From positions 62,001 to 126,000 of the forward strand of contig JAGQYM010000002.1 of the NCBI GenBank assembly GCA_020436085.1: 64,000 bases of DNA, given 5' to 3'. The number at the start of each line of letters is the position of its first letter. Position 1 is the stretch's first letter. A model generated the notes under the pieces. It ran no database searches and was not told where the DNA came from. It saw nothing but the letters and a program-made list of their open reading frames with translations. Position numbers and translations under genes: made by a program. Positions 7,842 to 12,353 of the stretch are shown one piece after another. Origin of the DNA: Cyclobacteriaceae bacterium. GTDB taxonomy: Bacteria > Bacteroidota > Bacteroidia > Cytophagales > Cyclobacteriaceae.

Positions 7842-8705
7842 TCATGAATTCCGGATTGCAAACTGCACTCTATCCTGCGTCCTTTTTTGCGAAAGTCGAT
7901 TGATGGCGGTTTCCGAAAGTTGAAGTATGCGCGGGTAGCCCCCGGTTGTTTGACAGTCGCGCATTAAGACGATCAGTTGCCCGGATGGTGTAAGCTGCAC
8001 GGTGCCAGGTAGCACACTTGAAGTTAACATGCTGTAGCTTTCCGGATAGGACAGATTATTTTCATTCAATCGATATCCCATCCTGTTGTTGTCGCCTCCC
8101 ACTGAGAACTCTAAATCAAATAGGGATTTCTGATCCTCCTGCTTTAATATTTCAAACTCTGGACCTGCAGTACATGGCAATTCAAGTGAGTCAAAAAGTG
8201 TTGGGTCTTCTTTCACAACTGACTTTAATTGACCTGACGATCGACTCGAATGAATTGATAACCGATCTCCTTTTTTGATTAATGCGTTGCTTGTGATTCC
8301 GCTGTAATAGGAAAAACTGTTCATCACCTTTTCAGTTTGAAATCCACCCTTGACACTCAGGTAGGCACGCACGCCTTTTCTTGCCCCACCAAACGAAAGC
8401 AAATCTCCAGCTGACAGTTGCACCGGTCTGTTCATAAAGCACGCGCCTCCGTTGACTGCGGGAGAGAGATCTGCACCGGTGATTACAATCAGGGTATCAG
8501 AATTGAAAACCAGTTGTGGGCCGGTCAATGTGATTTCCATAACAGCTGCACTTGCGTCATTATTCAAAAGATGATTTGCCATCGCAGCACTTTGGTGATC
8601 CATCGTACCGGAAACAGGCACACCAAACCTTTTAAAACCGAAACGGCCTTTATCCTGAATGGAAGTTAAAAGCCCTGGAGTCAGTACGTCAATTGATCCT
8701 ATCAT
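7842..8705 (-). CDS. pxpC: 5-oxoprolinase subunit C (PxpC, biotin-dependent carboxyltransferase-like)
   Basis: The last gene of the pxpABC set. PxpABC opens 5-oxoproline (pyroglutamate) to glutamate using ATP. The protein shows the KipA/urea-amidolyase-type start: VLTPGLLTSIQDKGR, then FGVPVSGTMDH. Further on it has ITGADLSP, a GGFQTE segment and the closing MRDCQTTGGYPRI block. I chose ATG at 8705; a TTG at 8714 is also in frame. It overlaps the end of pxpB by 17 bases, so the two are translated together. About 287 residues is a normal length. Confidence 0.92.
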   Translation of the reverse strand: MIGSIDVLTPGLLTSIQDKGRFGFKRFGVPVSGTMDHQSAAMANHLLNNDASAAVMEITLTGPQLVFNSDTLIVITGADLSPAVNGGACFMNRPVQLSAGDLLSFGGARKGVRAYLSVKGGFQTEKVMNSFSYYSGITSNALIKKGDRLSIHSSRSSGQLKSVVKEDPTLFDSLELPCTAGPEFEILKQEDQKSLFDLEFSVGGDNNRMGYRLNENNLSYPESYSMLTSSVLPGTVQLTPSGQLIVLMRDCQTTGGYPRILQLSETAINRLSQKRTQDRVQFAIRNS

Positions 8706-9432
8706 TTTTCTCAATTTTATACTCTCCTTTCAAAACTTCCTCCCTTATGTTTTTATAGTCTTCAACAGTTACTGCAAAGAACTGAATTCGATCTCCTGCT
8801 TTTGCAAAGCAGGGAGGGTTTGATTTGGGGTCGAAAAAATTAATCGGACTATTTCCAATAATATTCCAACCTCCCGGACTTTCGGAGGGATAAACACCGG
8901 TCTGCATCCCTCCGATGGCCACCGCGCCACGATCGATTTTCAGTCGTGGCGATGGTCTGCGAGGTGCGTGAAGTTTTTCTGGAAGGCCACCCAGGTAAAG
9001 GAACCCCGGAAGAAACCCAATAAAATAAATCAGATAGGTGTGTTGACAATGAAGTTGAATCAATTCCTCGATTGATATTTTTTTTGATTGACTCAACTCC
9101 TCCAGATCAATTCCAAAAGATGAGTCGTAGCATACTGGAATCTTCCAGGTTCTATTACTCTTGATTACTTGAATGGCGTCTTTTCGGTCCAGCGTTTTTA
9201 TTGTGTGCTGAAGCTCGGCAAGGTTAACTTTTAAGGGGTCGAACAGAACTGTGAGGGAGTTGTACGCATTCACAGTTTCAATTATTCCTTCATTGATTTC
9301 ACTCTCCAGGATGCTCTGAAGACGAAGGATATCATTCAGGATGTTTTCCTCCAACCGTGCAGGCCACTCGATCAGCAAAGCCGAATGACCAAACGCTTTA
9401 AAAGTAAGTTCAAACTGCGCCAATTTTCGCAA
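8689..9432 (-). CDS. pxpB: 5-oxoprolinase subunit B (PxpB, KipI-like)
   Basis: A subunit of the ATP-dependent 5-oxoprolinase, homologous to KipI and to allophanate hydrolase subunit 1. The hallmark stretch is present: IGFLPGFLYLGGLP near residues 138-151, then RLKIDRGAVAIGG and TGVYPSESPGGW. It overlaps pxpA by 23 bases and pxpC by 17, consistent with a stoichiometric complex. The start is non-ATG (TTG at 9432 or TTG at 9423). Confidence 0.92.
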   Translation of the reverse strand: MRKLAQFELTFKAFGHSALLIEWPARLEENILNDILRLQSILESEINEGIIETVNAYNSLTVLFDPLKVNLAELQHTIKTLDRKDAIQVIKSNRTWKIPVCYDSSFGIDLEELSQSKKISIEELIQLHCQHTYLIYFIGFLPGFLYLGGLPEKLHAPRRPSPRLKIDRGAVAIGGMQTGVYPSESPGGWNIIGNSPINFFDPKSNPPCFAKAGDRIQFFAVTVEDYKNIREEVLKGEYKIEKNDRIN

Positions 9433-10165
9433 TGCTTATATGATGAATCGGCAGTTGTTGATTTAGATAACTCACAATATCAACTGCATGTGAGTTGTCT
9501 CCATGAATGCACAGTGTGTCAGCCTGGATATGAGAAAGCTGTCCTGATAGAGACTTTACTTTTTTTTCTTTGATCATTAGCAACACGCGAGTCAGAATTT
9601 CTTCTGGATTTTGGATCACAGCATTCTCAAGTTTTCTGGAAACGAGTGTAAGGTCATCGTTGTAGTTTCTATCGGCAAACGCCTCGAACATAACTCGGAT
9701 CGATTGTTCTAGCGCGAGTTTTGCCATCACAGAGCCATATGGGGCGTACAGTATGATCTTCTCGTCAAATAGCAGAACTGCCTTGACAACTGCTTCCGCA
9801 ACACCTTTGTCAACGGTTGCCATATTGTAAAGCGCTCCATGTGGTTTCACGTGATTCAGTACAGCTCCTTCTTCTTTCGCAATAGCGTCCAATGTTTCAA
9901 TTTGATCGAGCACTAGTGAAGTCAATTGCTCTGAGGGGATTCGCATTTCAGTTCTGCCAAAATTCTCCTTGTCTGGAAAAGAAGGGTGTGCGCCAATTTT
10001 GGTTCGATGCTGCTTAGCAAGTTGAATCGTTTGCCGCATCGTGTCTTCGTCACCGGCATGTCCACCGCAAGCAATATTGCAAGAACTTAGGAAGGGCATC
10101 AGGAGGTGGTCATTTCCTACACCTTCACCGAGATCGCAGTTGATATCAATCACAAAATTTTCCAC
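9410..10165 (-). CDS. pxpA: 5-oxoprolinase subunit A (PxpA, LamB/YcsF family)
   Basis: A 251-residue LamB/YcsF-family protein, the third subunit of PxpABC. The N-terminal DINCDLGEG signature, SCNIACGGHAGD near residues 28-39, and HVKPHGALYN are all intact. The start is GTG at 10165, sharing one base with the TAG stop of the transporter gene upstream (TAGTG), so translation is probably coupled. With pxpB and pxpC it completes the enzyme. Confidence 0.93.
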   Translation of the reverse strand: MENFVIDINCDLGEGVGNDHLLMPFLSSCNIACGGHAGDEDTMRQTIQLAKQHRTKIGAHPSFPDKENFGRTEMRIPSEQLTSLVLDQIETLDAIAKEEGAVLNHVKPHGALYNMATVDKGVAEAVVKAVLLFDEKIILYAPYGSVMAKLALEQSIRVMFEAFADRNYNDDLTLVSRKLENAVIQNPEEILTRVLLMIKEKKVKSLSGQLSHIQADTLCIHGDNSHAVDIVSYLNQQLPIHHISIAKIGAV

Positions 10166-11364
10166 TATGCTATAACCTGAATGATGCTTTTTAACCCAAG
10201 AACAATTGAAAGAATAAAAATGGCGATTCCGATTACATTTTGGGTTCTAGAATTAACATGGCTGCCTAGAACATTGGCTCGATTCATAATCCACAAAATA
10301 ATTCCTACGATGATTGGTAGTGCTGCACCATTCGCTATCTGAGCAAATTGAATGATCTCGATTGGGTTGATGCCGAGGGATGCGAAAACTACTCCCATCG
10401 ATAGAACAAATATCCATACCAATCGGAATTTAATATTTCTCATATCAACACCCCACCCAAGACAACCGTTGGCTACAAATGCGGCTGCCAGGGGAGCGGT
10501 GATGGCAGATGTAATGCCCGCAGCAAACAAGCCGATACTCAAAAAGTATTTTGAAAAACTTCCAAATAGCGGTTCCAACCCTTTGGCGAGATCCGAGGCA
10601 TTTTTGACATCTGAGGCATCTACTGTAGCGGCTGAAATTATTATCGCCATCGACACAAGGCCACCCAATGCGACTGAGACAAAAGTGTCTTTTTTTGCAA
10701 ATGATAAATCACTAAGAGCATTCCATTTCTCTTTAACCAGTGAGGCGTGAAGAAATAAATTGTAGGGAACAACCGTTGTGCCGATGAGTCCGACAACGGT
10801 AAGCAGATTCTCTTGGTCAAGTGTGGGCACAAATAGCCCCTTCAATACTTGGACCACGTTTGGCTTAGTGATAATGGCAGTAAGTAGAAACGCAATGCTC
10901 ATTAAAATCACAAGACCCACTAATGCTCGCTCCAGAATTTTGTAGTTGCCAATAAAAAGTAAGGTGAATGCGATCGCGCCAACAACGAGCGGAAGGTAAT
11001 TGAAAGTCGCATCGATATCGAAGAGTGTTTTAACGCCAAGAACTGCTCCACTGATGTTACCTGCTTCATAGATCGCGTTTCCAAAAACGATGGCAATCAA
11101 GATGAGTGTTACAATCATGTATTTGACTACCGGATTCTTTATTTCACCACGTATCACATCTGCGAGTCCTTTTCGCGATACAATCCCGATTCTGGCGGCC
11201 ATCTCCTGAAGAAGAATAGTCGCCACGGTAGACAAAAGCATGGCCCAAAGTAAGGTGTAGCCAAACTTAACACCAGCGATAGTACATACTGTAACGGTGC
11301 CAGGCCCGATAAATGCAGCAGCGACCAGCGCTCCCGGGCCCGAGTTCTTAAACCATTTGATCAT
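10165..11364 (-). CDS. NRAMP-family transporter lacking canonical metal ligands, in 5-oxoprolinase operon
   Basis: A 399-residue LeuT-fold transporter with about 11 membrane helices, clearly homologous to NRAMP/MntH: the segment around IGPGTV, FGYTLLWAML and ARIGIVSRKGLADVI lines up with MntH helices 1-2. The helix 1 metal motif DPGN is GPGT here (residues 20-23), and the helix 6 MPH motif is VPY (199-201). Asp, Asn, Met and His, the metal-contacting positions, are thus all replaced. Manganese/iron transport is therefore doubtful. It is joined by one base to pxpA, and a NRAMP-like gene (ycsG) also lies with the pxp genes in Bacillus subtilis. Uptake of 5-oxoproline or another small organic substrate is my inference. 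Confidence 0.85.
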   Translation of the reverse strand: MIKWFKNSGPGALVAAAFIGPGTVTVCTIAGVKFGYTLLWAMLLSTVATILLQEMAARIGIVSRKGLADVIRGEIKNPVVKYMIVTLILIAIVFGNAIYEAGNISGAVLGVKTLFDIDATFNYLPLVVGAIAFTLLFIGNYKILERALVGLVILMSIAFLLTAIITKPNVVQVLKGLFVPTLDQENLLTVVGLIGTTVVPYNLFLHASLVKEKWNALSDLSFAKKDTFVSVALGGLVSMAIIISAATVDASDVKNASDLAKGLEPLFGSFSKYFLSIGLFAAGITSAITAPLAAAFVANGCLGWGVDMRNIKFRLVWIFVLSMGVVFASLGINPIEIIQFAQIANGAALPIIVGIILWIMNRANVLGSHVNSRTQNVIGIAIFILSIVLGLKSIIQVIA

Positions 11365-11402: not shown

Positions 11403-12353
11403 TTAACAAACTACTTTCTTTAAAATGTCATCGCTGACATTGCACCCGCACAGTATTGCAATAACTTTTTTTCCTTTGAACTTATCTTTCGATTTTAGTA
11501 TCGAAGCGATCGCCACACCAGCAGATCCCTCAATTACCATATGATGTTTCTTGACTGCCAGCTTCATGCTCTCCATGATTTCCTCTTCTGAGACCAACAC
11601 ATACTCATCTACTATTTTTTTGCACATATCAAACGTGATTGAGTCATGATCAATGCCGCCAGCTGTGCCATCTGATAATGTTGGAGTTTCTTCAACATCA
11701 ATCACCTTACCTGCTTTAATGCATTCATACATCACAGGAGCATTTTGAGGAAGGCAACCAATCACTTGTATACTGGGGTTTACTGATTTAAGATAGGTGC
11801 CAATACCAGAAATGAGTCCACCACCTCCAATAGAAACAAATACCGCATCGAGATCAGGAAGTTGTCTTATCAGCTCAGCTCCGATTGTGCCCTGACCTGC
11901 AATTACATCTTCATCGTTGTATGGCGAGACATATACTTTATTAGTCTCAGCCGCAAGCTTTCGTGCGTAGACCTCAGTGATTTCGCCACTGTCGCCATGG
12001 AATTCGACTGGAGCATTGCGCGAGCGTATCGCTTCAACTTTAGCGGTTGATGCTTTTGTCGGTAAAAAAATAGTTCCTTTTCTTCCCGTTATTCCCAGCG
12101 CGTTCGCTACGCCCAATCCATGATTCCCAGTGGACGCAGTGATAATTTCTCTCGGGTCATTTTCAAGTGATTTTATTTTATAGAGAGCCCCTCTGGCCTT
12201 GAACGATCCCGTTACTTGTACGTTTTCCATTTTGAGAAACACCTCGCTATCTGTTTGTGCTGAGAGATAATGGGAGTACTCGAGAGGTGTTTCGCGAATT
12301 GCTGGGCGGATTATTTTGTCTGCGATTTCAATTTTGGAGACGAGGGTTTGCAT
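11403..12353 (-). CDS. Threonine/serine dehydratase-like PLP enzyme
   Basis: A 316-residue fold-type II PLP enzyme of the catabolic threonine dehydratase/serine racemase group. The Schiff-base lysine is Lys52 in TGSFKARGA, and the phosphate-binding glycine loop reads SIGGGGLISGIG. STGNHGLGVANA and the C-terminal IVEGSAGVA-type block (VIEGSAGVAIAS) are also typical. There is no ACT regulatory domain, so feedback control by isoleucine is unlikely. It is the first gene of the operon leading into the transporter (38-base gap) and pxpABC, suggesting joint use of amino-acid derivatives. It could equally act as a serine racemase. Confidence 0.85.
   Translation of the reverse strand: MQTLVSKIEIADKIIRPAIRETPLEYSHYLSAQTDSEVFLKMENVQVTGSFKARGALYKIKSLENDPREIITASTGNHGLGVANALGITGRKGTIFLPTKASTAKVEAIRSRNAPVEFHGDSGEITEVYARKLAAETNKVYVSPYNDEDVIAGQGTIGAELIRQLPDLDAVFVSIGGGGLISGIGTYLKSVNPSIQVIGCLPQNAPVMYECIKAGKVIDVEETPTLSDGTAGGIDHDSITFDMCKKIVDEYVLVSEEEIMESMKLAVKKHHMVIEGSAGVAIASILKSKDKFKGKKVIAILCGCNVSDDILKKVVC

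Follow-up and report, generated by a model that had tools for sequence, protein, structure and literature searches.

An NRAMP-related carrier of the GPGT type encoded beside pxpABC in a Cyclobacteriaceae bacterium: a candidate importer of 5-oxoproline

What does a protein of the NRAMP fold carry when all four of its canonical metal-ligand positions are changed and its gene lies in one cluster with the genes for a 5-oxoprolinase? This question is raised by a carrier gene in a stretch of 64,000 nucleotides from a Cyclobacteriaceae bacterium, the whole of which is termed the window. NRAMP-related carriers without metal ligands are known in print, as is the use of 5-oxoproline by way of NRAMP-type proteins. 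The lineage of the window carrier, termed GPGT after its TM1 motif, was not found in the open-licence PMC literature, nor was any mention that this lineage is distinct from YcsG and pairs with one or the other of two enzyme families in bacteria and archaea. The GPGT-type proteins are publicly annotated as divalent metal transporters, an annotation that would mislead metabolic models.

The gene cluster of the window and the carrier protein

The cluster lies on the minus strand of the window in the order dehydratase, NRAMP-type carrier, pxpA, pxpB and pxpC-type gene:

11403..12353, minus strand: threonine/serine dehydratase (NF005292, 436.5 bits, cut-off 371)
10165..11364, minus strand: NRAMP-related carrier of the GPGT lineage, 399 aa, without canonical metal ligands
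9410..10165, minus strand: pxpA, 5-oxoprolinase subunit A (LamB/YcsF) (NF003814, 287.7 bits, cut-off 226)
8689..9432, minus strand: pxpB, 5-oxoprolinase subunit B (TIGR00370, 184.2 bits, cut-off 145.55)
7842..8714, minus strand: pxpC, carboxyltransferase protein of the subunit C type (above the cut-off of TIGR00724, below that of the stricter NF045499)

PxpA passes the cut-offs of NF003814 and NF003816 and does not pass those of three other PxpA models, and PxpB passes the curated cut-off of TIGR00370. The pxpC product passes the cut-off of the broader model TIGR00724 (231.4 bits, cut-off 230.2) and fails that of the strict PxpC equivalog NF045499 (194.6 bits, cut-off 500). PxpABC was reportedly defined in a study of 2017. 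The carrier gene is real, and the overlap between its stop and the GTG start of pxpA, which the preliminary description of this locus had pointed out, is found: one possible GTG shares a single base with the stop, and an alternative in-frame GTG sits 12 bases further on. The dehydratase gene lies directly upstream of the carrier gene on the same strand, 38 bases before its ATG. It was rejected as a part of a conserved system, because none of the 80 named relatives has a dehydratase gene at a distance of up to 1.5 kb. The nearest named relatives of the carrier gene are those of Flavobacteriaceae, so that the phylum of the window is probably Bacteroidota.

The carrier matches the NRAMP superfamily model PF01566 of Pfam with 291.2 bits (cut-off 29.8) and has the NRAMP/LeuT-type fold. 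Its TM1 reads GPGT in place of DPGN and its TM6 reads VPY in place of MPH, and the four canonical ligand positions are thus all changed (D20G, N23T, M199V and H201Y), in agreement with the preliminary description. Misalignment was ruled out as the origin of this change, because two aligners agree. V199 and Y201 are present in 122 of 122 relatives, and T23, N103, T196, Y201, N202, S286, Q342 and N345 are each at least 99% conserved among them. Canonical NRAMP/MntH proteins, such as DraNramp and BfraNramp, have the DPGN and MPH ligands and an acid at the position of E134 of DraNramp. In contrast, the window carrier lacks all of these, and the E134 position is occupied by asparagine (N103), which is not an acid, in all 122 relatives.

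It is quite improbable that the window carrier is an importer of a divalent metal (Mn2+) with a different site, whose link to pxpABC would come from co-regulation or from nitrogen metabolism requiring the metal, and the replacement of all four ligand positions together with the invariant N103 argues against it. This possibility is favored by NRMT, an NRAMP-related branch that is reported to move Mg2+ with an altered site (PMC10115441, in excerpt). NRMT, as represented by EleNRMT, resembles the window carrier in having the NRAMP fold with an altered TM1 and TM6. It differs in that its TM1 aspartate is retained (NDAGG) and that its position in the tree is away from the GPGT proteins; the window carrier has no TM1 of the NDAGG type and does not group with the NRMT proteins.

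The GPGT branch and other NRAMP-type lineages

A first, unrooted tree was constructed from 84 NRAMP-type proteins, and its 40 GPGT proteins form one side of a branch with an SH-aLRT support of 88. In a second tree, also unrooted, six proteins of the class 'other', some of them long-branched, were left out and the motif columns of TM1, TM3, TM6 and TM10 were removed. In this tree, a branch with a support of 99/98 again sets the 40 GPGT proteins apart, and 10 MumT-type proteins form another branch (100/100); the NRMT proteins are not united in a single branch, and the letter make-up of seven proteins is odd. The branch as an artefact of the motif columns alone was rejected, because it stays when these columns are removed. 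The proposal that the window carrier belongs to one branch lacking the four ligands is therefore borne out. The GPGT and canonical proteins are on different branches, and the window carrier is not among the canonical members. The GPGT and MumT types are separate in the second tree, but a tree in which they are held together is not rejected (p-AU 0.284), and the idea that the two pxp-linked lineages represent independent recruitments was set aside for this reason.

Two sister proteins of the window carrier, L151 and L168, come from Pseudohongiella and Rhodoferax MAGs respectively, and pxp genes are absent near their genes. These MAGs are titled as Pseudomonadota, and the two proteins may represent either transfer or misbinned contigs. 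Eight proteins of the window's phylum (L069, L073, L074, L075, L078, L079, L080 and L081) belong to a separate branch with TM1 'IGTGS' and without metal ligands; six of the eight are in the second tree and form one branch with a support of 100. The neighbours of L069, L073, L075, L080 and L081 are polysaccharide or sugar-acid genes (alginate lyase, heparinase II/III, KDPG aldolase, GH2 and GH20), and this branch may carry sugar acids.

YcsG/MntG of B. subtilis, PxpT of C. glutamicum and PxpG of C. difficile are, like the window carrier, NRAMP-related carriers encoded beside pxpABC. The preliminary description had drawn a parallel to YcsG, which holds for the gene neighbourhood but does not extend to orthology. 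YcsG (entry 9a52_A, the title of which names YCSG, and which we take to be the B. subtilis protein) is only 22% identical to the model of the window carrier in a structural alignment, as compared with 56% over 393 residues to the model of the MumT-type carrier L089, which is a weaker model (pLDDT 72.8, five sequences). The window carrier was accordingly rejected as a YcsG orthologue. Because YcsG belongs by identity to the other lineage, the published results for YcsG and PxpT do not transfer directly to the window carrier. The locus of a B. badius plasmid (L187, YcsG lineage) comprises pxpA, the carrier gene, a hydro-lyase gene, pxpB, a pxpC-type carboxyltransferase gene and the gene of an IclR regulator, a layout similar to that of the B. 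subtilis operon. In the members of this lineage that were read, the TM1 aspartate is replaced by G and the TM6 histidine by Y, and YcsG is assigned to the 'G-motif 3' group of proteins without DPGN and MPH in the available part of PMC12873925. PxpT and PxpG are reported to be 50% identical to YcsG and 46% identical to PxpT, respectively (PMC13274462, in excerpt). The experimentally studied YcsG, PxpT, PxpG and MumT thus appear to form the other lineage, PxpT and PxpG by these reported identities.

MumT of the A. baumannii mum operon resembles the window carrier in being NRAMP-related and in having pxp-like neighbours, which for its homologue in L192 are a pxpA-like gene and a fusion of the pxpBC type, but it differs from the window carrier in that it groups with the YcsG lineage. 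The A. baumannii homologue has GPGFLTQT in TM1 and GGTVGGY, and lacks MPH. Genes for pxpA and pxpBC-like proteins adjoin the MumT-type carrier of A. baumannii (L192), and pxpA, a hydro-lyase, a pxpBC-like fusion and a biotin carboxylase accompany those of a K. pneumoniae plasmid (L193) and Pararhizobium (L191, which is below the HMM threshold and was excluded from the trees). A search with L089 matches 93 Klebsiella plasmid records, with about 47% identity among the matches listed. The 3.97-Mb A. baumannii record NZ_CP064203.1 is filed as a plasmid, although its length looks chromosomal.

The literature on YcsG-type proteins is split between Mn2+ (PMC10448178) and 5-oxoproline (PMC13274462), both sources being cited from excerpts. 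In favor of metal import, overexpression of YcsG, which was renamed MntG, raised cell Mn2+, a triple mutant of ycsG, mntH and mntA could be made only with extra ycsG, and the pxpA promoter, from which ycsG is expressed, is bound and repressed by the Mn2+ regulator MntR (PMC10448178). MumT, which adjoins urea carboxylase genes and is reported as a Mn transporter, similarly promotes the accumulation of Mn as well as growth when Mn is limiting (PMC5050338, in excerpt). Both proteins are thus reported to raise cell Mn2+ (PMC10448178, PMC5050338), and they also lack the TM1 aspartate, as judged for YcsG from its grouping in PMC12873925 and for MumT from the A. baumannii homologue. What speaks against metal import by the window carrier is that YcsG belongs to the other lineage by identity, as does the A. 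baumannii MumT-type homologue in the tree. In the wild type, the pxpA promoter of B. subtilis is moreover reported to be induced by added Mn2+, which also argues against metal import (PMC10448178). With respect to 5-oxoproline, YcsG is reported to be needed for its use as a nitrogen source in B. subtilis, and deletion of pxpT prevents growth of C. glutamicum on external 5-oxoproline, which is restored by a plasmid copy (PMC13274462). In the earlier work on YcsG, a polar effect on pxpBC was not ruled out according to PMC10448178.

Canonical NRAMP genes are also relevant to metal import. G146, a genome of the same genus as that of the window, carries a canonical NRAMP besides a MumT-type carrier, which lies at pxpA where the window has a GPGT type. 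The window's own genome encodes, outside the window at G000:C155:14506-15291 (L002, L263), the last 262 residues of an NRAMP of the canonical type, 640 residues long. This fragment is cut by the contig end and is 63% identical to a protein of the same genus, and no N-terminal part was found elsewhere in the assembly. Metal uptake may therefore be otherwise served in these bacteria.

Ring-opening enzymes encoded beside the carrier

Among the NRAMP genes listed as matches in the window's phylum, 90 were read (the 30 best-scoring and 60 chosen by score band), with a few others added afterwards. For the 90, same-strand neighbours were counted up to a distance of 1.5 kb. The GPGT carriers are accompanied by pxp or hyu genes at 25 of 31 loci (pxp at 20 and hyu at five), and by neither within 1.5 kb at the other six. 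The MumT/YcsG-type carriers are accompanied by pxp genes at all four loci, and neither pxp nor hyu genes are found at any of the 30 canonical NRAMP loci or at any of the 25 loci of other NRAMP-related proteins. Among 148 genomes of this phylum, the GPGT type is present in 35 by the loci read, pxpA scores above the cut-off in 34, and both are present in 26 (Fisher p 1.1e-14, kinship being ignored). In 34 of the 35 GPGT genomes, either pxpA is present somewhere or hyuA adjoins the carrier. Nine GPGT genomes lack pxpA, and hyuA adjoins the carrier in eight of these, G030 having neither gene. In G049, G053, G064, G076 and G111, the GPGT carrier lies apart from pxpA, yet pxpA is present elsewhere in the genome. 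Conversely, eight pxpA genomes lack a whole GPGT carrier; five of them have a MumT-type carrier (four by the loci read and G033 by tblastn), G128 has a C-terminal GPGT fragment with a stop, adjoining pxpA, G047 has an MFS transporter beside pxpA, and the eighth is G143.

The same pairing is seen at the 80 named loci, which are the best matches of a genome scan and carry 77 Bacteroidota and three Pseudomonadota titles: at 71 of them the same strand carries pxpA no more than 3 kb away, and pxpA is not found within this distance at nine, some of which are on short contigs. In a draw of Pseudomonadota genomes, the phylum label of which rests on one MAG title, a strong match is present in five of 249. 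Within flanks of 1.5 kb, one of these five loci has pxpA, one has hyuB and three have neither. The carriers with hyuB (L183) and pxpA (L186) are sister proteins with different partners, and the swap of the partner requires at least two changes on the tree.

Haloarchaeal plasmids encode relatives that are 40-46% identical to the window protein. Of the 23 haloarchaeal records listed with an identity of at least 40%, 11 were read. The carrier gene is directly followed by hyuA in 10 of these, as seen from the annotation in nine and by tblastn in one, and hyuA is absent downstream of the carrier in the Natrononativus record. The HyuA/HyuB family comprises hydantoinases, caprolactamase and oxoprolinases and is not known to be homologous to PxpABC; in agreement with this, PxpABC and the Hyu proteins match different family models. 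The tie of the carrier to 5-oxoprolinase that the preliminary description had seen in the gene neighbourhood therefore holds and extends to an unrelated enzyme family. Because PxpABC and HyuAB belong to different enzyme families, they are probably linked by the class of their substrate, namely 5-oxoproline or a lactam acid close to it. For a carrier found with either of two such ring-opening families, the simplest view is that it carries the kind of substrate they share, and an importer of Mn2+ would give no account of this pairing.

The best NCBIfam match of the Haloferax HyuA/HyuB pair is caprolactamase CapA/CapB, at a score below the cut-off. This match and the wide range of the family favor import of another compound, either a small cyclic amide or a gamma-glutamyl derivative, such as hydantoin, another lactam or a pyroglutamyl peptide, with 5-oxoproline being one of several substrates or an intracellular product. 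A gamma-glutamyltranspeptidase gene adjoining the carrier of L052 points in the same direction, and the gene neighbourhood does not distinguish between 5-oxoproline and other lactams. Such a substrate is nevertheless unlikely, because the partner is PxpABC in the window and at 20 of the 31 loci read in the phylum, and because 5-oxoproline is common to PxpABC and the Hyu-type oxoprolinases.

Substrate of the window carrier and origin of the metal site

The window carrier is thus, judging from its sequence and genomic context, probably an importer of 5-oxoproline (pyroglutamate) or a close small lactam acid that feeds PxpABC. It would be a secondary carrier with the NRAMP fold, would reside in the inner membrane and would import this compound, and PxpABC from the same cluster would open 5-oxoproline with ATP to yield glutamate. 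In amino-acid carriers of the same superfamily, the carboxylate is held by backbone amides at the broken helix 1. The broken helix 1 of the window carrier (GPGT) may hold the carboxylate of the substrate in the same manner, with T23, N103, T196, Y201, N202, S286, Q342 and N345 as candidate substrate contacts, so that a polar uncharged site would replace the metal site. The gene itself, its fold, the changed motifs, the branch and the neighbourhood are observations, whereas in this scheme we infer the substrate, direction, coupling (to H+, Na+ or no ion) and binding site. Transport in the opposite direction, either export of 5-oxoproline or glutamate or an exchange of one for the other, is highly improbable. 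It would be consistent with the formation of 5-oxoproline inside cells (PMC13274462), and sequence cannot give direction, but the loss and restoration of growth on external 5-oxoproline upon deletion and supply of pxpT fit import, albeit in the other lineage (PMC13274462). Import of 5-oxoproline does not explain the raised cell Mn2+ upon overexpression of YcsG, the Mn results for MumT or the presence of MntR at the YcsG promoter, and the nearest proteins with experiments, YcsG and MumT, are reported as Mn2+ importers (PMC10448178, PMC5050338). The score of the window's PxpC below the strict model and the GPGT loci at which neither enzyme is encoded nearby also count against this role.

The preliminary description had assumed that this clade has left metal transport. 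This direction is probably wrong, because a 2026 preprint, as far as its available part goes, places NRAMP-related proteins without DPGN and MPH as paraphyletic and basal to the metal transporters, with the metal motif arising later (PMC12873925). According to this tree, canonical NRAMPs acquired the metal site, and the GPGT lineage did not lose it. In the same preprint, all NRAMP-related groups without the metal site are called 'entirely uncharacterized' except two, that of YcsG and the NRMT-like one (PMC12873925). The claim of a new substrate class for the NRAMP fold is likewise upheld only in part: it is not wholly new, because genetic evidence for 5-oxoproline exists for YcsG and PxpT (PMC13274462, in excerpt), but no transport report was found for the GPGT lineage in the open-licence PMC literature. 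A wider scheme may tentatively be proposed, with less confidence than the role of the window carrier itself. In this scheme, the GPGT proteins would carry 5-oxoproline and its kin from Bacteroidota to haloarchaea, keeping the substrate while the partner is exchanged between two unrelated ring-opening families. The YcsG/MumT proteins would be a second NRAMP-related branch serving oxoprolinases, the NRAMP fold would, as the branch with polysaccharide genes also suggests, have carried organic solutes before its metal site arose, and some 'Mn importers' (MntG and MumT) would act on the metal indirectly. A lineage with all ligands replaced and a swapped partner offers a clean test between Mn2+ and 5-oxoproline, and could also show if the metal site is ancestral in the NRAMP fold.

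An independent hint of 5-oxoproline comes from DUF2891, which is encoded with DUF969 and DUF979 in C. jejuni and with the GPGT carrier in Flavobacteriaceae. A C. jejuni mutant in the operon of DUF969, DUF979 and DUF2891 is reported to be unable to use 5-oxoproline, and DUF969/DUF979 is the suspected transporter (PMC12795558, in excerpt). These proteins differ from the GPGT carrier in belonging to other protein families, judged by name alone, and resemble it in sharing an operon with DUF2891, which precedes many GPGT carriers. The DUF2891 gene lies directly upstream of the carrier at 49 of the 80 named loci, and at least one of pxpA and DUF2891 is present at 75 of them. DUF2891 was rejected as a general marker of 5-oxoproline, because it is present in 16 of the 148 genomes and lies directly upstream of a GPGT carrier in five; six neighbouring proteins scanned at five loci elsewhere show no clear link. 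At L052 (3263-7474), DUF2891, the GPGT carrier and gamma-glutamyltranspeptidase are encoded in a row, and pxpA is located elsewhere in the genome. A structure of the DUF2891 family has been solved (8ieu).
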